Numbered from the stretch's first letter, positions 40,778-60,794 are shown. The stretch is 64,000 nt of DNA from Bryobacterales bacterium (GCA_003142185.1 PLOR01000093.1:1-64000); one strand, 5' to 3'. A program made the numbers and translations. The notes: generated by a model from the sequence alone, not told the origin.

Positions 40778-40866
40778 GGTAGGACAGACCATCGCGCCTT
40801 TCGTGGTCTGCCATTTTTCGCTGGAGCACGAAAACCTGACAGACGACCAAAAGCGATGGTCCTACC
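40778..40866. repeat. palindromic repeat, family B
   Basis: GGTAGGACAGACCATCG at one end and CGATGGTCCTACC at the other, with inner arms GGTCTG and CTGACAGACGA. It sits between two genes and touches the last codons of the lipid kinase. Other copies are at 52552-52669, 54364-54453 and 60707-60794. Confidence 0.75.
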
Positions 40867-43892: not shown

Positions 43893-46298
43893 CTACGGGT
43901 GGTCGTCTCTCATCAGCTTGCTCACGCGCTTCAGATTGCTCCTGATCTCGTCGGTGGCGTCGATCAGTTGATTGGTGTCATAAATCACGCGCGGGGTCAA
44001 AAAGATGATCAGTTCGGTGCGCGATGTGCTGACTTGTTTGGTGCCGAACAGCATGCCCAGGACCGGGATGCGATTCAGATACGGGATACCACCCGTGGAT
44101 TCTGTCTTGGATTCGAGGATGGCCCCGCCGATGGCAACCGTGTCGCCATCCTGCATCGTGAGCTGCGTGCTCATGGAGCGGTTGGAGAACGACGGAGAAT
44201 CACCGACGTTGGTAGACGACGACCCCGCCAAGGGAGCGCTCACCTGCTGGTTGACGATCATCGTCACCACGCCGCTCGAGTTGATGTGCGCCAGGATGTT
44301 CAGCGTCACGCCCGTGCTCTGGTTGCTCACGCCCTGGACAAGTTGCGAGTTGCCACCCGTAACTCCCGACAAGCCGGTGGAAGTGGCCACCGGAACCTGG
44401 CTGCCCACGTTCATGGTGGCCGGCACGCTATCGGTGGCGATGATGCTAGGCGAAGAGATCACTTTGGAGCGGCCGCTGCTTTCCTGCGCCTGCAGCGTAC
44501 CGAGCAGTTGTTTGGCCTTCAGAACCAGCGTGCCGGCCTGCAGCAGCACGCCGCCCGGGCCGGCCGCGAGAAATGGCGCCGTCGATGCCGCGATACCGCC
44601 GTTCAGGCTTTGCGAGGAGGTTGCTCCCGTCACACTATTGGTCGCGGTGCTACCGGTGGAGAGCGTGGTTGCGTTGCTGCTTCCCGCCGATTGCAGATAG
44701 GTTTGCAAGCCCGCCGCGAAATTGCCCGACAGGTCTACCTCGTAAATCTTGCAGTCGATCAACACCTGCCGCGGCGCCACATCCAACTGCCGCAGCAGAT
44801 TCTGAATATCCTCCCAGTCCTGCGGCGTTCCCTGCACCAGGAGCGTGTTATCGAACGGATTGGGGATGACGTGCGGCATGTGGGCGGGCGGTTCGCCGCC
44901 GGTGGTCCCCTGGCCCAAGTAGCTGCCGGTGCGGTCGGCCATGGCCGACTGCGCCGTTCCATTGGCGGTCAAACCCTGCCCCTGCATGGGCGCCCCTTGG
45001 GTCTGATATCCGCCGTAACCGCCGTAACCGCCGGACATATTGCCGTAGCCCGTCCCCATGGATCCGCCGTAGCTCATGGAGCCGCCGCCGTAGCCACCGC
45101 CCATGCCGCCGCCGCCGTAGCCACCGCCCATGCCGCCACCGCCATAGCCACCGCCCATGCCGCCGCCGCCATAGCCACCGCCCATGCCGCCGCCGCCCAT
45201 GCCGTAGCCCGTGCCATTCAAGCCGAGGCCCGAAGCGTACATGCTATTGTTAGCTTGCTCGGCCAATCCGATCAGCGCCATCGGATTCCCGGTGTACAGC
45301 GCCATGATCGCCATGGCCACCGTCTCGGCGCGGCCATACTTCAAGCGGTACACCCAGTTATTGGTCGATCCCGCCGTCACTTTCACAGGGATGTCCAGCT
45401 TGTCGATCCACTTCTGTACTTCCGCGAAGATGCCCGGATTGGGAGCCACGGCAATCAGGGTGTTGATGCGGTCTACCGGAATGAACCGCACGGCTGAGCT
45501 CTTCTCGGAGAGCGCGTAGGCTTTGAAGACCGTGTCCAGTTCCTTGGCCAGGTCGGTGGGACGGCTGTTCTCGATGTCGAAAAGGCGGACGCGCTTGGAC
45601 GCGAAGGTGTCGCTGTCAAACATCGCGATCAGTTCCATCGTCCGCCGCATGTTGCGGCCGTTGTCTTCGAGAATCAGCAGATTCGCCGGATCATAGGTGG
45701 AGTGCGTGGCGCCTTCGCCGTAGAATGGCGTCAGCAGTTTGTCCATGTCCACGGCGGTGGCGTACTTGAGGAAAATCAGGTTCAGAACCATCTGCTCGTC
45801 GTCGGGCAGCGTCTTGGCGTCCGCGTTGATGATCGGCTCCAGCGGAAGCTGGGACACCGCGTTGACCGGCACGATCCGGTACAGGTCGCCGACCTTCACG
45901 ATGGTGCTGGCATTGACCCGGAGGATGGTTTGGAGAAGCGTCATCAGATCCACCGGCTTCACTTCGCCGTAGGTGTGAATGGTGACCGAGCCTCTGACCC
46001 GCGGATCGATCATTATATTGATCTTCAGCAGCTTGGAGATCAGGTTGACCATCTCGATGAGATTCACGTTGTCCATCGAGAGCAGACCCTGGTCGGCCAT
46101 CTTCGGCTCCTGCGCCGGCGCGGTGGCCTTGGCGGGCGCGGCCTGCTGCGCCGGCGCCGGCTGCGCTGGCTGCGGCTGCGGTTGCTGCGCCTGCCGCTGC
46201 TGCGTAATGTCCTCGATCGATCTCGACGGAGCCTGCGCCAGCAACGCCGGAATCATGGCGCCGGCGAGCGCGAGCGAAAGAAAGAAGCTGCGGTGCAT
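43893..46298 (-). CDS. gspD: type II secretion secretin GspD
   Basis: An 801-residue outer-membrane secretin. A signal peptide (1-21), a Gln/Pro/Ala-rich linker (30-65), N-domains N0-N2 (70-360, including VNLIEMVNLISKLLKINIMIDPRVRG) and the secretin domain (about 500-790, with VPVATSTG, TMQDGDTVAIGG and the C-terminal LIIFLTPRVI strand) are visible. A Gly/Met/Tyr repeat insert is placed at about 360-425. It forms the exit channel of the machine. The lipoprotein pilotin signal is absent, so assembly may need another factor. Start is four bases after the preceding small gene's stop. Confidence 0.93.
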   Translation of the reverse strand: MHRSFFLSLALAGAMIPALLAQAPSRSIEDITQQRQAQQPQPQPAQPAPAQQAAPAKATAPAQEPKMADQGLLSMDNVNLIEMVNLISKLLKINIMIDPRVRGSVTIHTYGEVKPVDLMTLLQTILRVNASTIVKVGDLYRIVPVNAVSQLPLEPIINADAKTLPDDEQMVLNLIFLKYATAVDMDKLLTPFYGEGATHSTYDPANLLILEDNGRNMRRTMELIAMFDSDTFASKRVRLFDIENSRPTDLAKELDTVFKAYALSEKSSAVRFIPVDRINTLIAVAPNPGIFAEVQKWIDKLDIPVKVTAGSTNNWVYRLKYGRAETVAMAIMALYTGNPMALIGLAEQANNSMYASGLGLNGTGYGMGGGGMGGGYGGGGMGGGYGGGGMGGGYGGGGMGGGYGGGSMSYGGSMGTGYGNMSGGYGGYGGYQTQGAPMQGQGLTANGTAQSAMADRTGSYLGQGTTGGEPPAHMPHVIPNPFDNTLLVQGTPQDWEDIQNLLRQLDVAPRQVLIDCKIYEVDLSGNFAAGLQTYLQSAGSSNATTLSTGSTATNSVTGATSSQSLNGGIAASTAPFLAAGPGGVLLQAGTLVLKAKQLLGTLQAQESSGRSKVISSPSIIATDSVPATMNVGSQVPVATSTGLSGVTGGNSQLVQGVSNQSTGVTLNILAHINSSGVVTMIVNQQVSAPLAGSSSTNVGDSPSFSNRSMSTQLTMQDGDTVAIGGAILESKTESTGGIPYLNRIPVLGMLFGTKQVSTSRTELIIFLTPRVIYDTNQLIDATDEIRSNLKRVSKLMRDDHP
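45045..45215 (-). repeat. tandem 27-bp repeat inside gspD
   Basis: About four near-identical 27-base units (roughly 45087-45206), with degenerate flanks. Each encodes nine residues of the form GGYGGGGMG. The repeat keeps the frame, so it is a coding low-complexity insert between the N-domains and the secretin domain, and likely varies in number between strains. Confidence 0.85.
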
Positions 46299-46301
46299 CG
46301 G

Positions 46302-46685
46302 TTACTCCCGCCCGCTTGCCGGGCCCGCCTGCTGGCGCGCCCAGAAGGCTTGCTCCGCCGCGTCCAGCTCCGATTTCTTGGTCCGCCACCGGTAAACGCC
46401 GAAGGGGCCCGGCCGTTCAAAGCGGACGGCGTCGCCATCGTCCCAGGCCCTGGTGTTGTCCCATGCCTCGGGGCGTGCGGGAGCCACCGATTGGGCTTCC
46501 GCCCGCGTAATGCCGAACGGAGTCCGGCGGTAGATCCACGTCTTGCCTTGCGCGTCGGTATGGCGGTAGAGGTTGGACTCCACCACTACCGCGCCGGCGG
46601 GTATGGCGAGCGTCGCCGTCCCGCCAGCCGGCTCGGCCGCTCGCAGCGCCATCATCGAAACCAAAAGTATTAGAAATGTTTTCAT
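46302..46685 (-). CDS. small exported protein in the secretion operon
   Basis: A 127-residue exported protein (signal peptide 1-16). The mature part begins with a beta-rich segment (TATLAIPAGAVVVESNLYRHTDAQGKTWIYRRTPFGITR) and ends in helices with many aromatic residues (VYRWRTKKSELDAAEQAFW). No family was recognised. It lies between gspC and gspD, 58 bases after gspC and four bases before gspD, so it is probably a periplasmic accessory of this secretion system. Confidence 0.7.
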   Translation of the reverse strand: MKTFLILLVSMMALRAAEPAGGTATLAIPAGAVVVESNLYRHTDAQGKTWIYRRTPFGITRAEAQSVAPARPEAWDNTRAWDDGDAVRFERPGPFGVYRWRTKKSELDAAEQAFWARQQAGPASGRE

Positions 46686-46743
46686 TGCTTACTCTCCCAG
46701 ATCTACAAACTTCGCGCAGGCATTGGTGGGTAGCGCCTGACCT

Positions 46744-47469
46744 TCACTGCACCGGCTCCCAGAGACAGGCCGAACCGAACGGCGTGCGACTCATCACCTT
46801 GCGGTAGCCATCCACCACCGATCCGACCGCCGACGTGTCGCCCGGGTTGCAAAGCTTGACGCCGAAGTGGGTCGCCTCGCCGGGTCCGGGCGCCGCCGGC
46901 GGCGGAGGCGGGGGCGCGTATACGGGAGCAGGCACATCGGTCCGCACCGCGGCAGCCTGCATGGCGGGACTCGTGTTATCTTCCAACTCGTACACCGACT
47001 TGTGAATCACCTGGTCTCTCCACGCGAACTCGATCTCTCTTGTATTGACGCTGCGCAGCGTGAATTCGCCGATCGTCTCACCCGGATGCACCGCCTCGTG
47101 CTCCGAACTTTTCGTGACGCTGAGGATGGCGATCGGCCTGCCATCCAGATTCATGTATCCGTGATAGACCGGCAGCGGCGGCACCGGCGGGGGAGGCGGG
47201 GGCACCGGAGGCGGCGGGAGCGGAACGTTGGGATCGCGCGAGCGGTCCAGCAGGTCTTTCTGCGCCACTTCTTTGTAAGCGGACGGCAGCACCGCCGGCG
47301 GGTTGGGCAACGGCTGCCAGGGCGCCGTTGGCGGCGCGGCCACGGGGCGGCCCAGGGTCGCGGCCTGATGCGCCTTGGCGGCGCGCCACCCGTCCCGCAA
47401 TTCGATGGTGGTCCATACCACGGCGCCCGCCAGAGCCAAATTGAGGACGATCCAGAGCTTGCGATTCAC
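46744..47469 (-). CDS. gspC: GspC-like inner-membrane protein
   Basis: A 241-residue protein: short cytoplasmic end, one membrane helix (5-23), a linker, a Pro-rich stretch (about 82-98) and a beta-rich domain (VYHGYMNLDGRPIAILSVTKSSEHEAVHPGETIG, 100-165) like the GspC homology region that contacts the secretin, then another Pro-rich tail. There is no PDZ domain. Assignment relies on position between gspM and gspD and on the HR-like motif; it may be a diverged GspC. Its start overlaps the gspM stop (ATGA). Confidence 0.75.
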   Translation of the reverse strand: MNRKLWIVLNLALAGAVVWTTIELRDGWRAAKAHQAATLGRPVAAPPTAPWQPLPNPPAVLPSAYKEVAQKDLLDRSRDPNVPLPPPPVPPPPPPVPPLPVYHGYMNLDGRPIAILSVTKSSEHEAVHPGETIGEFTLRSVNTREIEFAWRDQVIHKSVYELEDNTSPAMQAAAVRTDVPAPVYAPPPPPPAAPGPGEATHFGVKLCNPGDTSAVGSVVDGYRKVMSRTPFGSACLWEPVQ

Positions 47470-48062
47470 GCTCCCTGCCCCCCTTTCTTCTCGGGCAACA
47501 GTTTGCGCGCCACCAGCGCACCCACCGAAAGATGCACCTGTATGTTCTTGTTCTTGTCGTTGCCGCCGTTGACGCGGAGCTCGTTGGTGGCCAGGATCTG
47601 CGGCTGGTCGGCCAGCCCCGCCAACAGGTTCACCAGTTGATCGATGCCGCAGACGAAGGCCACCTCGACGCTGACTTCGCCGTAGTCGCCGCTCACCACC
47701 GCTTCGCCCATGCGCTCGACGCCGCGCACTTCGATGCCGTTGGCCTTGGCGACGCCCTGCACGAGCTCCAGCAACTGGGCCTGCGCCTGGGCCTTGGTGT
47801 CGGCCTTGAGGATGCCTTTTTCGCGCGTGGCCAACTCCGCCTGCGCATGGCGGAGCCGCCCTTCCTTACCCGGAACGGAGGCCGCCTTGACGCGCAACGA
47901 TTCCAGCCGGTTCTCGGCGATGGGAATGGCTTCGGCGGCCGGAACCGATCCCGCGTCGGAGCCCGCAAACAGGCCGAACCGCCAGGCCGCGGCAGGAATC
48001 AACAGCGCCGCGCCCGCCACCAGCCACGCCCGCGAGCGGCGGTCCAGGTTCCCGATGGTCAT
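47466..48062 (-). CDS. gspM: GspM/PilO-like protein
   Basis: A 198-residue bitopic protein with one membrane helix (about 14-32), a coiled coil (48-105) and a ferredoxin-like C-terminal domain (110-190, GIEVRGVERMGEAVVSGDYGEVSVEVAFVCG). This is the GspM/PilO arrangement, which pairs with GspL to couple the cytoplasmic ATPase to the pseudopilus. ATG 48062 overlaps the gspL stop by four bases (ATGA); the long open frame to 49013 is a shadow inside gspL. Confidence 0.82.
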   Translation of the reverse strand: MTIGNLDRRSRAWLVAGAALLIPAAAWRFGLFAGSDAGSVPAAEAIPIAENRLESLRVKAASVPGKEGRLRHAQAELATREKGILKADTKAQAQAQLLELVQGVAKANGIEVRGVERMGEAVVSGDYGEVSVEVAFVCGIDQLVNLLAGLADQPQILATNELRVNGGNDKNKNIQVHLSVGALVARKLLPEKKGGQGA

Positions 48063-49384
48063 GACTTCCCCCTGGTGGTGTGAATCTGGAACGTCTCTCC
48101 GGCGCCCGCTGCCGCGTGCTGGTCCATATCCATTTGCGAATTCCGGAACAGCGGCGAAGAGTCGAGAATCTTCAGCAGCGGCGCGGCCTGCGGCGCCTCC
48201 CCATTGATCCGCGCCGAATCGCGCGTCAGCTCGAGGGCGTTGGTCCACGCCGGCGGCTCTACCAGGCGGGTGAGCTCGCTGAGCGCGTCCAGATCGGCGC
48301 GCGTGCGTCCGCGGTATTGGTCGAGCAGCGCGGTGCGGGCGCGCGTTCGCTCGGTTTCCCGGTCCAGCGCGGCGGCGCGCACGGCGCCGGGTTGGACGCG
48401 CGCGATTTGGGCCTCCAGCGTCTTCAGATACCGGCGATCTTCGAACTTCGGCCACGCGATCATGCCGATCAGCGCCGCCAGCGCCAGCCCGGCGAGCACC
48501 GCTGTGGGAACGAACATGGCGCGCGAGCGCGAGCGCCGGTACTCGCGCGGCAAAACGTTCGCCGCCGGCGCCAGCCGGGGACAGGCCCCTGCCAGCGCCG
48601 TGGCGTACGGCAGTGCGTTGCGGGATAAATCGTTTTCCACCGGATTGACGGTGGGCCGGGGCAGCAATTCCTCCAGCGTCGTCGGCTGGGTTTCCGGCGG
48701 CAGCCGCAGCTCGGCCAAAGCCAGCGCCGCGGCGCGTTCCGGCGCCATCTCGAACTCGGCGGAAAACACCGGCCGCCACGGGCTTTCGCCGTATACCTCT
48801 ACCGCGCCCTCCGGCGTGCGGCCGAGCCCCACGAAGCCTTCCCCGTCGCGATGGCCGTTCAGGCGGACGGCGGTGTGCACCGCGGCAGCGGAGAAGGTGA
48901 AACTGGAAATGGCAATGCCCGCCGCCGTAAACAGCTCCATGTAATGCTCGATCGCGGTGCGGCGCGCGATGCCCAGCAGCACGCCGCCCGAAGGCAGCGG
49001 GGACCAGCCCCACGCCACCTCATCATCGCCGTAGGGATGCAGCGTGTCGATTTGCAGCCGGATGGCGCTTTCCGTATCGCGGGCCGCCACGCCCGGCAAC
49101 GCCAGTTGGCGGACAATCGTTTCGCGCCGCGGCAGCAGCACGGTGGCGCTCAGGTGGCCGGCGCCGGCGGATTTCAAGAAGCGGCTGTATTCGCCGCCCC
49201 ATTCCGCGGCGGGACGCCCGTCGAAGCCCGCGATGACCAGGCGTCCCAGCACCCGGACGCCGGTCGGCCGTACCCGCGCCACCACCACTTCCAAGTCCGT
49301 GGCGCCGATGGCGATGCCCACGCCGGAACCGAATTCGAGCAGCTTGCGCACGTCTTTGGGAATCGCCAGCGGCATCGATGTCAT
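48059..49384 (-). CDS. gspL: GspL/PilM-PilN-like protein
   Basis: A 441-residue protein. The cytoplasmic actin-like (ASKHA/PilM) part (about 10-280; IAIGATDLEVVVARV, RRETIVRQLALPGV, SAIRLQIDTLHPY) binds GspE; a membrane helix (about 290-310) and a PilN-like coiled coil with a beta domain follow. ATG 49384 overlaps the gspK stop (ATGA), in line with the other junctions; a GTG at 49393 and an ATG at 49375 are alternatives. It links the motor to the pseudopilus. Confidence 0.85.
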   Translation of the reverse strand: MTSMPLAIPKDVRKLLEFGSGVGIAIGATDLEVVVARVRPTGVRVLGRLVIAGFDGRPAAEWGGEYSRFLKSAGAGHLSATVLLPRRETIVRQLALPGVAARDTESAIRLQIDTLHPYGDDEVAWGWSPLPSGGVLLGIARRTAIEHYMELFTAAGIAISSFTFSAAAVHTAVRLNGHRDGEGFVGLGRTPEGAVEVYGESPWRPVFSAEFEMAPERAAALALAELRLPPETQPTTLEELLPRPTVNPVENDLSRNALPYATALAGACPRLAPAANVLPREYRRSRSRAMFVPTAVLAGLALAALIGMIAWPKFEDRRYLKTLEAQIARVQPGAVRAAALDRETERTRARTALLDQYRGRTRADLDALSELTRLVEPPAWTNALELTRDSARINGEAPQAAPLLKILDSSPLFRNSQMDMDQHAAAGAGETFQIHTTRGKS

Positions 49385-50349
49385 TCGCTCCACGCCGTGT
49401 CGTACCAGCGCAAAATGTGAATCGGGGCGTCATAGCCCGGCGGCATGTACTTGACCATCGCCGCCACGGTGCGCCGCAGGTCGGAGAGTTGCCCGTTGTC
49501 CAGGCGCAGGCGCGCGGTGGCCCGTATGGTGACGATGGAGCGGCCACCCACCCGCAGCCTGCCGGCCGCCTCGCCCGCCATTCCCGCCACATCCCCAAGC
49601 TGCTCCTGCAGAATGGGACCCGCGTTGCGCCGCGCCGCCACCGCGGCAATCGCGGCCGGGTTCATCCCCACCGCGGCCAGCACCGCCGGCGAGGCGGTGT
49701 TCACATCCACCTGCGAACTACGCCCGTAGACCGAAAGGCAGTCCACCAGCCCCGCGCGGCGCGCCAGATGCATGCCGCCGGCCGCGTCTTGCTGCGGGGC
49801 ATAGGTTCCGTAAAACAGTTCGGGTGTTACGCCGGGCACGGACAACAATTCCTCAATCTCTTGTAAGGACGCGCCCGCGGGCTGAAAAGACGGTCCCTGC
49901 GTCAGGCCCGGTGGACCAGCCGCGCCGGTGCGTGCCTGGTCGATCGAGTGGGCCAGCGCGTCCGCCCGGACCTCGTCCAGCCCCAGCGCCATTCCCAGCC
50001 GGGTGAGATCTTCGAGGGTGGCTCGGTTGACGTTCAGCTTGGCCGTTTCGGGAATGAATTCCACCCGCACGTCGCCGCTCGCGAAATGGTAGATCACTTG
50101 GGTGGCGCCCTGCGGGATTGTGCTGGCAGCGGGGTTCTGGATACCCCACAGAACCTCGACCGCGGCGCGATCGATGCCCGCCGCAGCCAGGTAATAGCTG
50201 CGCAAGCCATCGAGCGCGGTGGACGTGCGTTCGGTTTCTCCGTGAATCGTGGTCGCCAGCGAAAACCCGATCGCCGCCAGCGCCGCCGAAAGCCAGAGCA
50301 CCGCTAGCAGCGCGCTGCCGCGGCGCCGATGCGCGTTTCGAGCCACCAC
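49381..50349 (-). CDS. gspK: minor pseudopilin GspK
   Basis: A 322-residue minor pseudopilin. The short leader ends in RRRG followed by SALLAVLWLSAALAAIGF, a type IV prepilin cleavage site and membrane helix. GspK-specific segments follow: ERTSTALDGLRSYYLAAAGIDRA, AKLNVNRATLEDLTRL and the later SQVDVNTASPAVLAAVG helix-hairpin-helix. It caps the pseudopilus tip with GspI and GspJ. GTG 50349 (or 50346) keeps a standard leader; the frame is open to 50772 but passes through the MITE-like element. Its end overlaps gspL. Confidence 0.9.
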   Translation of the reverse strand: MVARNAHRRRGSALLAVLWLSAALAAIGFSLATTIHGETERTSTALDGLRSYYLAAAGIDRAAVEVLWGIQNPAASTIPQGATQVIYHFASGDVRVEFIPETAKLNVNRATLEDLTRLGMALGLDEVRADALAHSIDQARTGAAGPPGLTQGPSFQPAGASLQEIEELLSVPGVTPELFYGTYAPQQDAAGGMHLARRAGLVDCLSVYGRSSQVDVNTASPAVLAAVGMNPAAIAAVAARRNAGPILQEQLGDVAGMAGEAAGRLRVGGRSIVTIRATARLRLDNGQLSDLRRTVAAMVKYMPPGYDAPIHILRWYDTAWSE

Positions 50350-50575
50350 CGTGAGGGAGTCACCGTGGGCCTGCGGCTCTGCCAAGGGGATGAAGCCAAG
50401 CGCCGTGGCGCGGGCCGTCAGGCCTGCAGAGCCGAGAGTCATCTCGGCTTTTCTTCCCAGAGTGCTGGCATGATCTTCAACCGAGCGGTTGCCGGCGACC
50501 GTGTTCGTCCCCTTCCGCGCGGCGCTCGCTACGCCGGCCGCGGGTGTGCGCCATGGAAGTGGGCGCCTTGCGGCT

Positions 50576-50728
50576 GGCTTTGTATCAGGGCACGGCTTCA
50601 GCCGTGCCGCAACGCATCGGTAGCCAAAGGCTTTAGCCACTGAGTCTCTCCTGAGTCCGCAGGGGCTGAAGCCCAAATCCTTCTCCCGATCCTTCGGCAC
50701 GGCTAAAGCCTTGCCCTGATACAAAGCC
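50576..50728. mobile_element. MITE-like element with 15-bp perfect terminal repeats
   Basis: GGCTTTGTATCAGGG (50576-50590) and its exact reverse complement CCCTGATACAAAGCC (50714-50728) bound a 153-base element containing a hairpin CACGGCTTCAGCCGTG. There is no gene. It separates gspJ from gspK. A matching right end starts the window (13-25). The flanking 50350-50575 and 50729-50849 contain nothing else recognisable. Confidence 0.7.
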
Positions 50729-50849
50729 TCCTGACAGAGCAAAGTGTTGTGTGCCCCTACGCTCAGATTCATGCGAATTCACCAGGAATGGAGCGTTTCG
50801 CCATTTCTGCGTCGCACACCCGGCGGCCGCTCCGCAGCGCGTCATATTA

Positions 50850-51677
50850 TCAAAAGTCCTCATAATGGATCTGCCAGGATCGGTGAATGCGGATCGGCGC
50901 CGTCACCGTGATCGGCTGCAGGTGTGAAGGATCGGCTACCAGCGGCGCCATTTCCACTCGAATCGCCACCGGCCAGCCGGTGCCCGTCGCGGTCGTCATC
51001 CATTGCGGCGGCAAGAACTGGGGCTGCCTCGGGGGCGATGGCGGCGTCACCAGATAAGAGAACCGGCAATAGGCCAGTTTGTCCGCCAGCACAAACGATT
51101 TTGGACTGGCCACAACGGGCGTGAAATGCACCATCATCCCGGCCACTGGGTCGGGGGTCATATCGGCGCAGGCGCCGCCGGCGCCAATCCGCGTGTATGG
51201 CGTCTCGTTCACCACCAGCCGCACTCCCGCACCCTCCTCGCCCGGAATCACGAACATCTCGAGGATCTGCGCCGGGCCGCGCCAGCCTTGCTGCAACGAG
51301 AATGTGGAAACCAGCCGCATGGCTTGCGGCTCGGCCTGAAAAAACACGAAGGTGGAATTCTGCAAGTCCGGGCGTCCCATGCATGGCGGCTGCACCGGGA
51401 CCAGCCCTTCCAATTCCTGCACCAGCACTCGCTGCGCGCCGGCCACGCGCCGGTTGGCGAGCAGCTTTTCATCCGTCTTGTGCAGCGCCTGCAAGGCCAC
51501 TTCGAGAGAAAGCAGCATAGCCACCGAAAGCGCGCTCAGCAACGTTACGGCGATCAGGACCTCAATCAGCGTCACGCCGGCCTGCCGGCTTCGCGCGTCA
51601 GAAGCAGTGAAAGAACCATGGCCACAGATAAACACAGATGAACACGGATCGAGAACAAGAGTCTTATCAGTGTTCAT
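50850..51677 (-). CDS. gspJ: minor pseudopilin GspJ
   Basis: A 275-residue minor pseudopilin (234 without the leader). RSRQAG then VTLIEVLIAVTLLSAL is a perfect prepilin peptidase site (G/VTLIE) with the conserved Glu5. The C-terminal globular region (YCRFSYLVT, WPVAIRVEM) fits GspJ. The only in-frame starts are ATG 51677 and GTG 51635, both inside the family E repeat, so the leader peptide is encoded by the repeat. Neither has a clear ribosome site. It forms the tip complex with GspK and GspI. Confidence 0.88.
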   Translation of the reverse strand: MNTDKTLVLDPCSSVFICGHGSFTASDARSRQAGVTLIEVLIAVTLLSALSVAMLLSLEVALQALHKTDEKLLANRRVAGAQRVLVQELEGLVPVQPPCMGRPDLQNSTFVFFQAEPQAMRLVSTFSLQQGWRGPAQILEMFVIPGEEGAGVRLVVNETPYTRIGAGGACADMTPDPVAGMMVHFTPVVASPKSFVLADKLAYCRFSYLVTPPSPPRQPQFLPPQWMTTATGTGWPVAIRVEMAPLVADPSHLQPITVTAPIRIHRSWQIHYEDF

Positions 51678-51699
51678 CGGTGTTCATCCGTGGCCAGAA
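51616..51699. repeat. family E inverted repeat overlapping the gspJ start
   Basis: TGGCCACAGATAAACACAGA faces TGTTCATCGGTGTTCATCCG followed by TGGCCA; 23 of 26 arm positions pair. The centre carries GAGTCTTATC as in the copy at 17381-17449. It lies between gspI and gspJ and contains the gspJ start codons. Confidence 0.78.
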
Positions 51700-51705
51700 A
51701 CCGCA

Positions 51706-52101
51706 TCATGGCCCCAGCACTCTGCGGCGCAGGCCCTCGATCTTAAAGGTCCGGCGCTGGCCGGAGGCCATCCACCATATCTCCAGCCGCACGTGGTCAA
51801 GCGCGATGGCGCCCGGGGCGGGCGTCGGCGGCGCTTCAAAGGGCGTGATCTGCGCTACCCATCCCGCCACTAACCCGCCGGTCAAATCGGTGTCGAACGT
51901 CCCGCTCGGCGGCGCGGCGGGGTCCGCCAGGATGTCGTTCATCCGCAGGCGTGCCAACTGCGCCACCCGGTCGTAGTCGCGCAGCCGCGCGGCATTGCGT
52001 ACCGAGCCGGAAATGGCCGCCAGCAGCCCCACCACGGCGATCGCCATGATGAGCGTGGCGACGATCATTTCGAGCAGGGTGAATCCGCGCGTGCGCCTCA
52101 C
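51706..52101 (-). CDS. gspI: minor pseudopilin GspI
   Basis: A 131-residue minor pseudopilin. MRRTRG then FTLLEMIVATLIMAIAVVGL is a textbook prepilin leader, cleavage site and Glu5 helix. The C-terminus has VRLEIWWMASGQRRTFKIEGLRR, a GspI-like end. Its start overlaps the gspH stop (ATGA). It initiates pseudopilus tip assembly. Confidence 0.9.
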   Translation of the reverse strand: MRRTRGFTLLEMIVATLIMAIAVVGLLAAISGSVRNAARLRDYDRVAQLARLRMNDILADPAAPPSGTFDTDLTGGLVAGWVAQITPFEAPPTPAPGAIALDHVRLEIWWMASGQRRTFKIEGLRRRVLGP

Positions 52102-52565
52102 TCTGTATGGACGGTTTCCACGCGCGGAAAGCCGGTCATGGGGTCCAATTGCACCCTGCGCCGTCCGCCATGGCGGTTGGAATACTCGACGCCAATGGCT
52201 GGCGCCGTACCGCCGGGGACGATCAGAAGCTGGCGGCCGCCGCCCTCGGAGCCGTCGCCGTCCGGCAACACCTTGTCCATGGTGATGCCTTGCGGCACCT
52301 GGAATCGCCGCGCGAAGCCGTCGCTGCCGTCCGCGGAAATGGTTCCGTCTTTGAGCGAGATCGACACCACCACCGGGTGTTCGCTGCGTTCGGCGTGGGT
52401 CACCGCCCCGTTCAGGAAACTGGCGATGGCGTCGCCGGTGGAGGCCAACCGCACGCTGTCCAGGCCGGCCGAAACCGAGGGAATCGAGACGCTTACCACG
52501 ATCCCGATCACGGCCACCACCACCAGCATCTCGATCAGCGTCACGCCCGAAGTAGGACGGACCAT
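52098..52565 (-). CDS. gspH: minor pseudopilin GspH
   Basis: A 155-residue pseudopilin. MVRPTSG then VTLIEMLVVVAVIGIVVSVSIP gives the leader, cleavage site and Glu5. The later GDAIASFLNGAVTHAERSEHPVVVSI matches the GspH helix and following strand. ATG 52565 is the only sensible start; it falls inside the left arm of a family B repeat. The open frame to 52763 runs through the whole repeat. It overlaps gspI by four bases. Confidence 0.9.
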   Translation of the reverse strand: MVRPTSGVTLIEMLVVVAVIGIVVSVSIPSVSAGLDSVRLASTGDAIASFLNGAVTHAERSEHPVVVSISLKDGTISADGSDGFARRFQVPQGITMDKVLPDGDGSEGGGRQLLIVPGGTAPAIGVEYSNRHGGRRRVQLDPMTGFPRVETVHTE

Positions 52566-52669
52566 CGGTCTTTGTGGTCTGTCAGCGCTCGCCACAGCGC
52601 GACGCCCTGACAGACGTGGCAAACGCGGCAGACATGACAGACGACCAAACCCGATCGTCTGTCCTTCCC
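52552..52669. repeat. family B repeat overlapping the gspH start
   Basis: Arms GTAGGACGGACCATCG and CGATCGTCTGTCC with inner GGTCTGTC and GACAGACG motifs; slightly longer than other copies owing to an extra CAGAC unit. It fills the gap between gspG and gspH. Confidence 0.75.
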
Positions 52670-52674
52670 CCGGC

Positions 52675-53118
52675 CTACTGGCTTTTCCAACTGACGATAT
52701 CGGCATTGATTCCGTCGCCGCCGGGCTGGCCATCGGCGCCGTAGCTGATAATATCCGGCTCATCGCCGTGGTCGCCGGGGAACTTGTACAGCCAATCGTG
52801 GCCCCACGGATCTTTCGGAATCTCCTGCGGCATATACGGCCCGTTCCACTCGGCCGCGTCCGCCGGCTTCACGCGCAGCGCCGCCAGGCCCTGCTCGGTA
52901 GTGGGAAAGTTCCCGTTGTCCAGCTTGTAGGTGCCGAGCGCGCCCATGAAACCTTGTATCTGCGCGCGCGCCGCCGTGATTTTGGCCTTGTCTACGTTGC
53001 TCCAGAGCCGCGGGCCCACCAGGGCCACGAACAGCCCAATGATCGTCACCACGACCAGCATTTCGATCAGGGTGACGCCGGCCGCGCCCCGCTTCCGCCT
53101 GTTCGCCGTCTGCTTCAT
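52675..53118 (-). CDS. gspG: major pseudopilin GspG
   Basis: A 147-residue major pseudopilin that polymerises into the piston. The leader MKQTANRRKRGAAG is cut before VTLIEMLVVVTIIGLFVALVGP. The GspG core is clear: AARAQIQGFMGALGTYKLDN, FPTTEQGLAALR and PYMPQEIPKDPWGHDW, with calcium-site residues near the C-terminus (SYGADGQPGGDG). ATG 53118 follows the gspF stop directly; an upstream ATG at 53133 overlaps gspF. Confidence 0.95.
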   Translation of the reverse strand: MKQTANRRKRGAAGVTLIEMLVVVTIIGLFVALVGPRLWSNVDKAKITAARAQIQGFMGALGTYKLDNGNFPTTEQGLAALRVKPADAAEWNGPYMPQEIPKDPWGHDWLYKFPGDHGDEPDIISYGADGQPGGDGINADIVSWKSQ

Positions 53119-53119
53119 T

Positions 53120-54337
53120 TCACACCGCCACATCGTTGATGCTCGTTATCGCGAGCAGCATACTCAAAACCAAACCGCCGACCACTATGCCCATCACCAG
53201 AATCACCACTGGCTCGAAAATGCTGGTGAAGCGGCGGATGGCCGCCCGTGTCTCATTTTCGTAAATCTCGGCCATGCGGGCAAACATCTGGTCCAGCCGG
53301 CCGGTTTCCTCGCCCACCGTCAGCAGATGCGCGGCCAGCGGCGGGAACACGCCCGCCTTGCGCGTGGGCCCCGCGATGCCCTCGCCGCGCTTCACCCCGT
53401 TGGCCACCCCAACCAGCGAATTTGCGATCATCCGGTTGTTCAGCGTAGCCGCGCCGATCGCGATCGACTGCACCAGCGGAACCGAGTTTTCGAGCAGCGT
53501 GGCCATGGCGCGCGCGAACCGCGCCGTCTCCGCCTTGAGCAACGCCACGCCCAGCAGCGGCACTTTCAGCCGGGCACCGTCCCACCACAACCGGCCCGCC
53601 GCCGTGCGCGTGTAAACGCGCCACAAGATGGCGACCACCGCCAGCCCGCCCAGCACGAACCAGCCGTAGCTCTTGACCAGGTCGCTCACTTCCAGCATGA
53701 TCCGCGTCGGCGCCGGCATCTTCATGTGCCCATCGGCGAAGATTACCGCGAAGCGCGGCACCACGAAGCTCAGCAGGATGAAAACCGAGGCCGCGGCCAC
53801 CGTCGCCAGCAGCGCCGGATAGATCATCGCCGAGACGATGAAGTTGCGCAGCTCGTCGCGCGAGCGTTCGAACTCGGCCAGCCTCGAAAAGATGACGGCC
53901 AAGGCGCCCGAGGCTTCGCCGGCCCGCACCATATTGATGTAGAGGTCGGAAAAGTATTCGCCGTGCGACGCCAGGCTGTCGGCCAGCGTACGGCCGCCCT
54001 TCAGCACGCGCAGCACGTCCAGTACGATGAAGCGGAACTGCGCCCGGTCGGTCAGCTCGGCCGTGATCGAAAGCGCACGGTCGAGCGGCACGCCTGCGTT
54101 CAGCAGCGTGGAGAGCTCCTGCGTGAAGAAGAGCACGTCGCTGCGCCTGCGGCCACCGAAGCTCGGCAGCTTGATTTCGAGTGACGACGCGGTTTTCGGC
54201 GTCGCGCCCACATAAACCGGCGTCAGCCCCTGCTTGCGCAACTCTCGCGCAATCCCTTTCTCGTCGTTACCGGACAGGCTCCCGGTGCGGATCTTCCCGT
54301 CCGAGGCCACCGCGCGGAAAAAGAACGTGGCTGGCAT
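53120..54337 (-). CDS. gspF: inner-membrane platform protein GspF
   Basis: A 405-residue polytopic protein with two T2SSF domains (about 70-190 and 270-395). Motifs VLFFTQELSTLLNAGVPLDRAL and FARAMATLLENSVPLVQSI mark the two repeats; helices lie near 170, 220 and 380. It connects the GspE ATPase to the pseudopilus. The N-terminal FFRAVASDGKIRTGSLSGNDE is usual. A family B repeat separates it from gspE. Confidence 0.95.
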   Translation of the reverse strand: MPATFFFRAVASDGKIRTGSLSGNDEKGIARELRKQGLTPVYVGATPKTASSLEIKLPSFGGRRRSDVLFFTQELSTLLNAGVPLDRALSITAELTDRAQFRFIVLDVLRVLKGGRTLADSLASHGEYFSDLYINMVRAGEASGALAVIFSRLAEFERSRDELRNFIVSAMIYPALLATVAAASVFILLSFVVPRFAVIFADGHMKMPAPTRIMLEVSDLVKSYGWFVLGGLAVVAILWRVYTRTAAGRLWWDGARLKVPLLGVALLKAETARFARAMATLLENSVPLVQSIAIGAATLNNRMIANSLVGVANGVKRGEGIAGPTRKAGVFPPLAAHLLTVGEETGRLDQMFARMAEIYENETRAAIRRFTSIFEPVVILVMGIVVGGLVLSMLLAITSINDVAV

Positions 54338-54363
54338 CAGAGTGCCGCGCCTTCGCCGTGAGA

Positions 54364-54453
54364 GGTAGGACAGACCATCGCCTTGCGTGGTCTGTCATCG
54401 CTCGCCAGACGCGAAGCCCTGACAGACGACAAAACCCGATCGTCTGTCCCACC
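54364..54453. repeat. family B repeat between gspE and gspF
   Basis: GGTAGGACAGACCATCG ... CGATCGTCTGTCCCACC with inner GGTCTGTC and GACAGACGA. This is the cleanest copy of the family. Confidence 0.8.
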
Positions 54454-54482
54454 TCTGCCTCGCGAATCATCGTCCATCCGCA

Positions 54483-56183
54483 CTAAAACTCCTGCGTCAC
54501 GCGCATCACTTCTTCGACCGTGGTCACGCCATCCCGTATTTTTTGCCAGCCGTCCTCACGCAGGTTGCGCATGCCGCTGCGCCGCGCCGCCTCGGTCAGC
54601 CTCGAAGCGTCGGCGTTTTCCATGATCAGCCGCCGGATCTCTTCGTTGAGCTGCATCATCTCGAAGATGCCGACGCGCGAAATGTAGCCGCTGCCGTTGC
54701 AGACCGCGCAACCCGCTCCGCGGTAGCTCCGGACGCGCGTGCCATCCGGCGCCACCGCCTCGCCCGCCGGCCGCTTGCAATCCTGGCAGATGACGCGCAC
54801 CAGCCGCTGCGCCAGCACGGCCACCAGCGACGAAGTCAGCAGGTAGCTTTCGACCCCCATATCGGCGAGGCGCGTGACGGCGCTCGGTGCGTCGTTGGTG
54901 TGCAGCGTGGAAAACACCAGGTGGCCGGTCAACGCGGCGCGGATGGCGATGTCAGCCGTCTCGCGGTCGCGGATTTCGCCCACCATGATCACGTCCGGGT
55001 CCTGCCGCACGATGTGCCGCAGCCCGGCGGCGAACGTCAGCCCGATCTGCGGATTCACGTGGATCTGGTTGATCCCGTCCATCTGGTATTCGACCGGGTC
55101 TTCAATCGTGATGATCTTCTTGTCGGGAAGGTTGATGCGCTTCAGCGCCGAATAGAGCGTGGTCGATTTTCCGCTGCCGGTCGGCCCGGTGACCAGGAAA
55201 ATGCCATGAGGCAGATTGGTAAAATGCTCCATCTGCGCCAGCATGCGATCGTCGAAGCCCAGCCGGCGCAGGTCGAAAAAATCGCCCGCCGAGCGGTCCA
55301 GCAGGCGCATCACCACGCTTTCCCCATACAGCGTCGGCAGCGTGGAAACGCGCAGGTCCACCTCGCGGCCCAGAATTTTGATCTTGATGCGGCCGTCCTG
55401 CGGCAGCCGCCGCTCCGCGATATTCAGCTTGGCCATCAGCTTCAGGCGGGAAATGATGGCCGCCTTCAGCTCGCGCGGCGGCGTTTCCTGGGCGGACAGC
55501 ACGCCATCCACGCGAAATCGCACGCGGAATTCCTTCTCGAACGGTTCGATGTGGATGTCGCTCGACCGTTTTTCGAGCGCATCGGCAATCATGGCGTTCA
55601 CGAGGCGAATCACCGGCGCTTCGCTGGCCATGTCGCGCAAGTGCTCGAGATCGGCCAGCGCCTCCTCGTCTCCGCCGTCCCCGGACAACACCTGGCGCTC
55701 GCCATCGGCGTAATGCTTGTCCACCGCGTCGACGATTTCCTGCTCGGCCGCCAGCGCCGTCTGAATCTCCAAACCGGAAAAAGACCCGATCGCGGCCGCG
55801 GTTTCGAAGTCCATCGGGTCGGCCATGGCGACCGTCAGCACGGAGCCGTTCAGCGCCACCGGAAACGCGCGCGATTGACGCAGGAAACGGTACGACAGCC
55901 CTTCGATCTCCGGCGCCGCGGGCGGCGGCCCGTCAATCGTCACCAGCGGCACGTCCAACTGTTCGCTCAGCGCCGCCAGCACGTCGCGCTGCGCCACCAG
56001 CCCCATATCCACCAGGATTTTGCCCAGCTTGTCGCCGCGCTCACGCTGCAGTTCGAGCGCGCGCTCCAGGTCCTCGGCTTCGATCTTCCCGCGCTCGATC
56101 AGCATCTCGCCCAGCCGCTGGAAGCGCAGCACGCCCACGGGGGGCGCTGCACTGGCCTGCGGTGCGAGGTGCTCGGGCGTCAC
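54483..56183 (-). CDS. gspE: type II secretion ATPase GspE
   Basis: A 566-residue AAA-like motor. An N-terminal GspE_N/MshEN-type region (20-160) is followed by the secretion ATPase domain with SSDIHIEPFEKEFRVRFRVDG, Walker A GPTGSGKST (333-341), an Asp box (ITIEDPVEYQ) and Walker B (VIMVGEIRDRETADIA). A zinc tetracysteine site is present (CQDC ... CAVC, about 468-497). GTG 56183 overlaps the previous stop (GTGA). It powers pseudopilus assembly at the cytoplasmic face. The B repeat follows its stop, so transcription may be modulated before gspF. Confidence 0.95.
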   Translation of the reverse strand: MTPEHLAPQASAAPPVGVLRFQRLGEMLIERGKIEAEDLERALELQRERGDKLGKILVDMGLVAQRDVLAALSEQLDVPLVTIDGPPPAAPEIEGLSYRFLRQSRAFPVALNGSVLTVAMADPMDFETAAAIGSFSGLEIQTALAAEQEIVDAVDKHYADGERQVLSGDGGDEEALADLEHLRDMASEAPVIRLVNAMIADALEKRSSDIHIEPFEKEFRVRFRVDGVLSAQETPPRELKAAIISRLKLMAKLNIAERRLPQDGRIKIKILGREVDLRVSTLPTLYGESVVMRLLDRSAGDFFDLRRLGFDDRMLAQMEHFTNLPHGIFLVTGPTGSGKSTTLYSALKRINLPDKKIITIEDPVEYQMDGINQIHVNPQIGLTFAAGLRHIVRQDPDVIMVGEIRDRETADIAIRAALTGHLVFSTLHTNDAPSAVTRLADMGVESYLLTSSLVAVLAQRLVRVICQDCKRPAGEAVAPDGTRVRSYRGAGCAVCNGSGYISRVGIFEMMQLNEEIRRLIMENADASRLTEAARRSGMRNLREDGWQKIRDGVTTVEEVMRVTQEF

Positions 56184-56740
56184 TGATTGGTCACCATGGC
56201 TGCGATCTGCGCGCCGCTCAGAATCGCGTGCCGCGTGCCCTTCACCACCATCTGGCCGGGTAGGCCGGTGGTGTCCTCGTAGGGCAAATAGACGAAGTTC
56301 ACGGCCACCACAATCTGCTGGTCGTCCGGCACCGCCAGATCCTTGGCGGCCGATTGCAGCATGGAGTTCATCAGCCGCTCGACCACCGGCAGGCGGGCCA
56401 GCTTGCGCTGCCGCACCTTCTCCTTGTCCTGTTGGCTGATGTTGGGCTGGAACGGGCTCAACCCGGGCGTGAAGACAGGGCTCAACTCGGTCGTGAACAC
56501 GGCCCCGAAGCCATCCAGGTAGATGCCGCGCGTGTTGCCCAGCACGTCGATGGGGTCAGTCACCGCGAACATCCGAAAACTGCGGTCGAAGCCGCGAGCG
56601 AGACCCGCCAGCGAGGTCAGCGTTACGCGTGGCGGGGCGGTCTCGATGCCGCCGCTCACACGGGCGTTGGCCGAAACCGGCCGCGCCACCTGCGCCGAAA
56701 GCGGCGCCAAAGCCAGCAGGATGGCAAGTACGGGTCTCAT
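56180..56740 (-). CDS. exported protein of unknown function leading into gspE
   Basis: A 186-residue exported protein (signal peptide 1-16). RSFRMFAVTDPIDVLGNTRGIYLDGFGAVFTTELSP is a recognisable but uncharacterised segment; the C-terminus has LAVPDDQQIVVAVNFVYLPYEDTTGLPGQM. Overlaps on both sides (ATGA with the anti-sigma gene, GTGA with gspE) bind it into the operon. It may be a periplasmic sensor or accessory of the secretion machine; this is inferred only from position. Confidence 0.72.
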   Translation of the reverse strand: MRPVLAILLALAPLSAQVARPVSANARVSGGIETAPPRVTLTSLAGLARGFDRSFRMFAVTDPIDVLGNTRGIYLDGFGAVFTTELSPVFTPGLSPFQPNISQQDKEKVRQRKLARLPVVERLMNSMLQSAAKDLAVPDDQQIVVAVNFVYLPYEDTTGLPGQMVVKGTRHAILSGAQIAAMVTNQ

Positions 56741-57339
56741 TTCGCCTCCAAGGCGGGCTGCCGCGGCGGGCCGTATTCGGCCGCCGACATAAACAAGGCG
56801 TGCTGACGCCGGTTGTCAACCTCCAGCTCCGCGGCCACCATCAGCAGCCTCTGCCGCTCGGCAGCCACCTCGTCTTTAAGCTGCCGGGTGCGCGCCGCCA
56901 CGGCCCGGTCGGCCGCCTGGTCGATGCGGGCCTGAATGGCGGCTTCGGAAACCTCCGGCGCCGCCTGCGCGGTCTGCACTGTGGGTACTTGAACCAACCG
57001 CACCGGTTGGACCGGCGCCGGCCGCGCCAGTGCGAACACCACCAGCGCCGCCGAAACGAGCGCCGCCGAGCCGAAGCCCAGCCGCGCCGGCGTGTTCCAG
57101 AACCCGCTCCACCAGCGGCGCCAGGCCGAAGGCTCGAAGACGGGATCGGAAACAAAAGCGATACGCCGCGGAATCTCTTCCTCCCGCAGGCTCAAGAGCG
57201 TGGTTCCGGTCAACCGCAGCCGGCTCAGTTCTTCCCGGCAAGTACGGCAGCCGGTGACGTGAGCTTCCACTTGCTTGCGCTCCGCGCCGTCCAGCTCCTC
57301 GAAAAAGTAATCTTTCAAATCGAATGGCGAGCAACTCAT
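56737..57339 (-). CDS. membrane-anchored anti-sigma factor (zf-HC2)
   Basis: A 200-residue protein. The N-terminal zinc-binding anti-sigma motif is H27-x3-C31-x2-C34 (EAHVTGCRTCREEL), one membrane helix lies at about 85-107, and a coiled coil (135-180) is outside. It should hold the adjacent ECF sigma factor at the membrane until a signal releases it. ATG 57339 overlaps the sigma stop. That it lies at the head of a secretion operon suggests it senses envelope state or secretion load. Confidence 0.88.
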   Translation of the reverse strand: MSCSPFDLKDYFFEELDGAERKQVEAHVTGCRTCREELSRLRLTGTTLLSLREEEIPRRIAFVSDPVFEPSAWRRWWSGFWNTPARLGFGSAALVSAALVVFALARPAPVQPVRLVQVPTVQTAQAAPEVSEAAIQARIDQAADRAVAARTRQLKDEVAAERQRLLMVAAELEVDNRRQHALFMSAAEYGPPRQPALEAK

Positions 57340-57902
57340 GACACACCTCGTGCCTCAATCGGAGCCAGCTCGATCTTCAGCAGTTCCAGCGCCGTATACA
57401 GGCGGCTTTTGATGGTGGAAACCGGGCAGGAAAGAATCTCGGCCATTTCCTCGAATTTGAACCCCTGGTAGATCTTCAGCGTCACGGCCTCGCGCTGTTC
57501 GGGCGTTAACCGCTCCAGCGCGCTGGCCACCGCCAGGCTCAATTCGATGGGAAATACCGGGTTGCCTCCCACCGCGATTCCGGTCTCCGTCGCCACCGGC
57601 GGCAAATCCGCCACATCGCTCTCCGGCCTTCGCTTGCGAAACATGGAATAGGCCTCGTTATGGGCGATGCGATACAGCCACGGCGCGAACCGCGCCGCGT
57701 CATCCAGCTTGCGAAGATTCTGATACGCTTTCAGAAACACGTCCTGCGTCAAATCCAAAGCGTCTTCACGATTGGCGGTCAGCCGAAGAAGATAGTTGTA
57801 GACACGCTTCTCCCACCGGGACACAAGGAGGTTGAACGCCTCCACGTTGCCCCGGGCAGCCTGGCGAATCAGATCGCCATCCTCGACCGCCCGAAAGATC
57901 AA
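57336..57902 (-). CDS. ECF-family RNA polymerase sigma factor (RpoE-like)
   Basis: A 188-residue sigma factor. Region 2 is YNYLLRLTANREDALDLTQDVFLKAYQNL with the -10-binding RFAPWLYRIAHNEAYSMFRKR; region 4 is LTPEQREAVTLKIYQGFKFEEMAEILSCPVSTIKSRLYTALELL. TTG 57902 is chosen because it has AGGAG seven bases upstream; the frame is open to 58031 but that part is the family A repeat. It likely directs transcription of its own operon or of secreted substrates. It heads the fourteen-gene secretion cluster. Confidence 0.9.
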   Translation of the reverse strand: MIFRAVEDGDLIRQAARGNVEAFNLLVSRWEKRVYNYLLRLTANREDALDLTQDVFLKAYQNLRKLDDAARFAPWLYRIAHNEAYSMFRKRRPESDVADLPPVATETGIAVGGNPVFPIELSLAVASALERLTPEQREAVTLKIYQGFKFEEMAEILSCPVSTIKSRLYTALELLKIELAPIEARGVS

Positions 57903-57981
57903 GCCTTGGCTCCTGGTGTGTAGACGCGCGGGGTCCGGCAAAAGTCGGACTCCTACTTCTTGAGTGTAGCCGAACAGTATT

Positions 57982-60706: not shown

Positions 60707-60794
60707 GTAGGACAGACCATCGCTTTTTGTGGTCTGTCGTCGCTCGCCAAACACGGCGCCTGACAGACGACGGAAACCGATCGTCTGTCCCACC
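60707..60794. repeat. family B repeat
   Basis: GTAGGACAGACCATCG ... CGATCGTCTGTCCCACC with inner GGTCTGTC and GACAGACGA, between the dGTPase and MFS genes. It matches the copy at 54364-54453 almost exactly. Confidence 0.78.

Follow-up and report, generated by a model that had tools for sequence, protein, structure and literature searches.

Does an extracytoplasmic function (ECF) sigma factor, encoded together with a membrane anti-sigma factor at the head of a type II secretion system (T2SS) operon, control the secretion genes behind it? The question was raised by a stretch of 64,000 nucleotides from a Bryobacterales bacterium (GCA_003142185.1 PLOR01000093.1:1-64000), here called the window, which belongs to a genome of 5.79 Mb in 119 contigs. 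An earlier note on this DNA had described a cluster running in one direction from the sigma gene to gspD. All the genes it named were found; they occupy positions 57902 to 43893 of the minus strand, in the order sigma, anti-sigma, sec, gspE-F-G-H-I-J-K-L-M-C, a small exported protein and gspD, where sec denotes an exported protein of an uncharacterised family. The note had also proposed that the machine may be switched on by an envelope signal, sensed through the outer coiled coil of the anti-sigma factor. Dedicated control of the T2SS by the sigma pair is strongly indicated by the comparison of genomes reported below: the linkage was found phylum-wide, and a promoter motif was found at the sigma gene, before relocated gspF blocks and in gspK.

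Linkage of the sigma pair and sec to the secretion genes

A sec probe found the gene in 30 of 41 relatives. In the loci around these matches sec was flanked by the anti-sigma gene and gspE, and the sigma gene came first wherever the contig was long enough to include it. The search was extended to 198 genomes spread over the phylum Acidobacteriota, in which a match to gspE above 600 bits was taken as an orthologue. Such an orthologue was present in 31 genomes; it was directly preceded by sigma, anti-sigma and sec (the trio) in 23 and not in the remaining eight. An independent search of the same 198 genomes with a sec alignment gave 23 strong matches, exactly the 23 trio-bearing genomes, and the eight gspE orthologues without the sigma pair were also without sec. 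Sigma, anti-sigma and sec were therefore gained or lost together. Five of the eight trio-less genomes belong to one genus, and in four of these five loci secA and guaB-like genes are found ahead of gspE.

The order and strand of sigma, anti-sigma, sec and gspE were identical in 74/74 loci in which all four were recognised, a count that is conditional, as the loci were partly picked via sec or gspE and some genomes were counted twice. The earlier note had called for a search for the same gene order in other genomes, and this conservation speaks for its proposal. In a tree of sigma factors from the loci, a moderately supported split separated the T2SS-linked and trio sigmas from the remaining ECF factors. 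Taken as a whole, the comparison indicates that the linkage between the sigma pair and the T2SS is ancient. One family of the order (f3, L051-L054) has an anti-sigma factor without the zinc ligands Hx3Cx2C, the gene order being unchanged.

Both exported proteins of the cluster had been suggested to be parts of the regulatory circuit. This was supported for sec, which co-occurs with the sigma pair also where no T2SS adjoins, but not for the small exported protein, whose gene lies between gspC and gspD and for which no counterpart was detected in the phylum's other families.

The promoter motif at the sigma gene

An ECF-type motif, GWCTTTT-N13-CGTC, was found ahead of the sigma gene; the earlier note had suggested that a sigma motif be defined upstream of the cluster. 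In the aligned sigma upstream sequences it appeared as tCcGACTTTTT-N-GCGTCTT, some 20-30 nucleotides before the start codon. A loose form of the promoter (GACTTT, GTCTTT or TCTTTTT with CGTC) was present in 45 of 46 Bryobacterales sigma upstream sequences, compared to 0.35% of shuffled sequences, and the start-to-start spacing from GACTTT was 20 in nearly all Bryobacterales sites. Outside the order a site was found in 18 of 21 sigma upstream sequences in the form C[AG]TC, usually CATC, so that the -10 box follows lineage: CGTC within the order and mostly CATC elsewhere. Judged by motif conservation, the ECF sigma's own gene is thus preceded by a two-box promoter, and the geometry of the predicted promoter of the window (P1, Table 1) is that of an ECF promoter. 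As the motif stands at the sigma gene itself, self-activation of the sigma factor is suggested. In the short sigma upstream sequences of the trios from Eisenbacteria and Neomarinimicrobiota, described below, no clear site with spacing 20 was seen. An inverted repeat around the -35 box was considered and rejected, being without enrichment over shuffled flanks.

A search of 81 genomes of the family with the exact pattern gave 38 matches, versus 6 for the reversed pattern, and most of them were located directly before the sigma gene.

Further copies of the motif

Two genomes (G239 and G015) have the operon split after gspE, and in both the moved block from gspF to gspD has its own site, 15-18 nucleotides before gspF. 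A further copy was found within the coding sequence of gspK (P2, Table 1). The earlier note held that separate strong promoters and terminators after the anti-sigma gene would speak against a common control. In a simple scan neither T-tailed terminators (10 in the region versus 11.0 expected from shuffling) nor sigma-70-like promoters (3 versus 2.0) were above chance, and none of either kind stood out after the anti-sigma gene. The promoter-like site in gspK does exist, yet its sequence is that of the motif at the sigma gene.

The gspK copy was present in 27 of 35 distinct gspK genes, on the sense strand only and in none on the antisense strand. The codons at the site were strongly biased. Serine was encoded by TCT in 12/12 cases (background 4.4%), threonine by ACT in 8/8 rows, one of them a duplicate (background 8.0%), and phenylalanine by TTT in 17/20 (background 30%). 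Rare codons fixed at the bases of the putative promoter point to selection on the DNA.

Among matches away from the sigma gene, only one recurred. This was the site at most 28 nucleotides before the start of 'LPM', which encodes an exported protein whose family is unknown (G000:C44:9190-9807; L136 859-1476), found in eight genomes, the window's and seven others of close genera only, compared to 0.03% in shuffled sequences. 'LPM' is a possible second member of the regulon. The other non-sigma matches were mostly single cases, such as a histidine kinase (L206), a secreted protein (L198) and a Ysc84-domain protein (L181). Outside the order the motif was found almost only before the sigma gene. 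No site was found in the five genomes of one genus that have a gspE orthologue and no sigma pair.

The sec family

The sec protein belongs to no Pfam or NCBIfam family, and 20 diverse members searched against Pfam gave only scattered weak matches. The AlphaFold model, with a predicted local distance difference test score (pLDDT) of 88, has the arrangement alpha-beta-beta-alpha-beta-beta-alpha-beta. Assignment to a known fold was rejected: the best Foldseek E-value was 0.085 and the VIA-align Z scores were at most 7.5, within the range of chance arrangements.

Named bacterial genomes were scanned for the GxYLxGYG motif of sec. Matches came from Bryobacterales, other Acidobacteriota, one Neomarinimicrobiota, one Eisenbacteria and one contig labelled Gemmatimonadetes. 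The Neomarinimicrobiota and Eisenbacteria contigs carry sigma, anti-sigma and sec without adjoining gsp genes. In the phylum of the Eisenbacteria contig, seven genomes, including the one labelled Gemmatimonadetes, have two sec genes each, one lone and one behind an anti-sigma gene; the sigma gene is also present in six of the latter seven loci, while in the remaining one (L244) the sequence stops within the anti-sigma gene. Because the trio occurs without an adjoining T2SS in other phyla, sec is better seen as part of the switch than as part of the machine, as far as gene neighbourhoods indicate.

The lone paralogue of the Eisenbacteria group (L232, L233, L237-L240, L242) stands before a gene for a small membrane protein, in a locus without a sigma pair. 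The Neomarinimicrobiota sec (L131 5242-6516) is about three times longer, and the sec profile matches it in three pieces.

Sigma and anti-sigma proteins

The sigma factor has 188 amino acid residues and consists of regions 2 and 4 only (PF04542, PF08281). Its TTG start at 57902 is backed by a conserved N-terminus and a GGAG ribosome site. The anti-sigma factor has a zf-HC2 domain with the zinc motif Hx3Cx2C, present as HVTGCRTC, and one membrane helix, in agreement with a class I membrane anti-sigma factor. About half of the membrane-bound class I anti-sigma factors carry the Hx3Cx2C motif (PMC7406223). In the AlphaFold model (mean pLDDT 82) helices are predicted at residues 8-50, 84-104 (membrane) and 132-188, and the outer, periplasmic part is modelled as a single long helix of 57 residues.

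Proposed mechanism and alternative explanations

The cluster is probably a self-amplifying ECF switch dedicated to one T2SS, a reading that is given a probability of about 0.77. The anti-sigma factor would hold the ECF sigma factor at the inner membrane until an envelope signal removes it. The freed sigma factor would then take RNA polymerase to P1 (GACTTTT-N13-CGTC), and its own gene, the anti-sigma gene, sec and the genes from gspE onward would be transcribed. P2 inside gspK would raise the expression of the distal genes gspL-M-C-D, and in some relatives the gene of an exported protein may have been added to the regulon. As part of the switch, periplasmic sec would most likely tune the anti-sigma factor through the outer helix of the latter. 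The reading is based on the linkage, on the co-occurrence of sec with the sigma pair and on the motif conserved at the sigma gene, the split-off gspF blocks and gspK; from these we infer the binding of the sites by the sigma factor, the release of the sigma factor and the role of sec.

Several observations weigh against it, besides the conditional nature of the 74-locus count. Recognition of the motif by the sigma factor is predicted from motif conservation. The exact pattern was neither significant nor specific in the window's own genome, where it gave 7 matches versus 6 for the reversed control; a large regulon in this genome was rejected on these counts, and the case for the promoter therefore rests on the comparison among genomes. 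Of the 35 distinct gspK genes, 8 lack the internal copy, and it is also missing outside the order. Finally, two loci are exceptions in having a promoter-like site upstream of gspE: L063, with no sigma pair at the locus, and L064, where the trio is missing and a divergent ECF and anti-sigma pair of another kind lies about 1 kb upstream.

Three other explanations were weighed. It is unlikely that sec serves in the structure or assembly of the machine, for example as a pilotin-like or secretin-stabilising factor, rather than as a signalling partner. The protein is exported and encoded directly before gspE, the Eisenbacteria have a second, lone copy, and its modelled alpha-beta-beta-alpha-beta-beta fold is similar, with middling scores, to domains of the ring-building and KH-like kinds in secretion systems (EscJ, PrgK and FliF, Z about 6). 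However, with Z below 8 the resemblance may reflect only a common arrangement, T2SS genomes without the sigma pair are also without sec, and sec was found with an anti-sigma gene, and with the sigma gene too where the locus was long enough, but without an adjoining T2SS, in 7/7 genomes of the Eisenbacteria group and in one Neomarinimicrobiota contig. The conserved sites could also be read by another sigma factor, the ECF pair being a co-transcribed neighbour with other targets. Other ECF factors do exist in these genomes, and recognition by the operon's own sigma factor is a prediction, but nearly all loci have the site at the sigma gene itself, the -10 box varies with the sigma lineage, most exact matches within the family are found ahead of the sigma gene and the site is absent in the five genomes without the pair, all of which makes this explanation very improbable. 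As for the gspK copy, the peptide P-S/T-F-x4-A-S is conserved in gspK throughout the order while the DNA motif is missing from some gspK genes, as would be expected from a mere coding constraint without a promoter role. Against this, it is exactly at the promoter bases that the rare synonyms TCT, ACT, TTT and TTA have been retained, and serine (TCT) and threonine (ACT) both fit the W of GWCTTTT, so that a coding constraint as the whole explanation appears quite unlikely.

A broader reading of the dedicated ECF switch is offered tentatively, as something that could well prove wrong. Sec would be the founder of a new class of periplasmic ECF/anti-sigma partner, present in three phyla or more; in Acidobacteriota it would inform the sigma factor of the state of the machine and so couple building to need, the sigma factor running a small regulon with a promoter hidden in gspK.

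Gene content of the operon

The features of the operon are collected in Table 1. The earlier note had called the T2SS operon complete. This holds in a relative sense: gspN, gspO (the prepilin peptidase), gspS and gspAB are absent from the cluster; the peptidase was not sought in the rest of the genome. GspK and GspL were below the curated or gathering cut-offs and GspC was without a match, and all three were named from position and conservation in relatives. GspE exceeded the cut-off of TIGR02533, whereas the PilB model gave 599.3, below its cut-off of 675.65. A type_II_gspD_N0 domain was found in GspD. Overlaps of four bases (ATGA or GTGA) had been reported at most joints; they were counted at 7 of 14 only. 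Dispersed palindromic repeats, which fall into three or more families, occur in four joints (E/F, G/H, I/J and J/K) and have more copies elsewhere in the window; they leave the start positions of gspH, gspJ and gspK uncertain.

Table 1. Features of the T2SS operon and its predicted promoters in the window
Feature	Position	Strand	Remarks
P1, predicted ECF-type promoter of the operon	57923..57946	-	GACTTTTGCCGGACCCCGCGCGTC; -35 GACTTT, -10 CGTC, start-to-start 20
ECF sigma factor	57336..57902	-	TTG start; Sigma70_r2 3.5e-18, r4_2 5.9e-14; kept in 74 loci
Membrane anti-sigma factor	56737..57339	-	zf-HC2 27.7 bits (cut-off 22.2); AlphaFold model
sec, exported protein, uncharacterised family	56180..56740	-	GxYLxGYG motif; accompanies the sigma pair
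gspE, secretion ATPase with MshEN domain	54483..56183	-	TIGR02533 631.9 (cut-off 630.25)
E/F joint with dispersed palindromic repeat	54338..54482	-	copies at 52549-52664, 60707-60794, 40778-40861
gspF, inner-membrane platform	53120..54337	-	T2SSF 5e-51
gspG, major pseudopilin	52675..53118	-	T2SSG, PF08334, 1.5e-38
gspH, minor pseudopilin	52098..52565	-	N_methyl; position and conservation; likely start codon inside G/H-joint repeat
gspI, minor pseudopilin	51706..52101	-	N_methyl; conservation
gspJ, minor pseudopilin	50850..51677	-	N_methyl; start uncertain, leader overlaps repeat
gspK	49381..50349	-	weak T2SSK_1st and HHH_3; position conserved; start uncertain, frame open to 50772
P2, predicted ECF promoter copy within gspK coding sequence	49868..49891	-	GTCTTTTCAGCCCGCGGGCGCGTC; sense strand
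gspL	48059..49384	-	weak PilM/PilN similarity; position conserved
gspM (XpsM type)	47466..48062	-	NF040576 62.6 (cut-off 60); T2SSM_b
gspC-like inner-membrane protein	46744..47469	-	no database match; position conserved in relatives
Small exported protein	46302..46685	-	no database match; between gspC and gspD in relatives, family and order only
gspD, secretin with glycine-rich insert	43893..46298	-	TIGR02517 380.4 (cut-off 351.35)
Repeat-bearing joints	54338-54482, 52560-52674, 51610-51705, 50400-50849		

The glycine-rich insert of gspD is an MGGGYGGG repeat located between the N-domains, at about 45040-45215 of the window. The MshEN-type domain of GspE scored 63.9, compared to the NCBIfam cut-off of 38 for the c-di-GMP (cyclic diguanylate) binding motif. 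Control of the secretion ATPase by this second messenger is a possible additional regulatory layer.

Comparison with known systems

Regulation of T2SS outside Proteobacteria is hardly known. A literature search found no paper on T2SS regulation in Acidobacteria and none on the present arrangement, which may be described elsewhere. For the T2SS of many lineages in a phylum that is abundant in soil, the finding supplies a probable dedicated regulator, the site at which it is predicted to bind and a candidate regulon. Sec is defined as an uncharacterised family accompanying an ECF/anti-sigma pair. A putative promoter inside a coding gene, gspK, is likewise described, and it is apparently maintained by selection.

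The secretion genes resemble the Xps/Xcp T2SS of Proteobacteria in the core assigned as GspC to GspM with GspD and in the XpsM-type GspM. They differ in that gspC is among the last genes of the cluster, ahead of gspD, gspN is absent from the cluster and regulators stand in front; furthermore, GspC and GspL are not recognised by the curated models.

A precedent for a T2SS under ECF control is found in Pseudomonas aeruginosa, where VreI raises the expression of the neighbouring hxc genes. Overexpression of vreI induces the hxc genes immediately downstream (PMC2729926), and hxc transcripts are raised in a vreR mutant (PMC7035377). In both systems an ECF sigma gene adjoins the T2SS cluster. However, the Vre pair is part of a cell-surface signalling system that includes VreA, a protein resembling TonB receptors, and a two-partner secretion system is under the control of the pair as well. 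The vreI gene appears to form an operon with vreA, whereas the acidobacterial pair heads the gsp operon with a predicted promoter of its own. No PUMA3-type TonB-dependent receptor or VreA-like gene was found beside the sigma pair, where the neighbours are TPR, dGTPase-type HD, MFS, ligA (recognised from its sequence) and DAGK genes. The Bryobacterales cluster has a zinc-finger anti-sigma factor with a coiled periplasmic part, and sec. The pair itself is like other class I ECF/anti-sigma pairs in its two-domain sigma factor and in the adjacent anti-sigma factor with Hx3Cx2C and one membrane helix, and unlike them in its constant companion sec, its fixed linkage to a T2SS and a periplasmic part predicted to be a single long helix.

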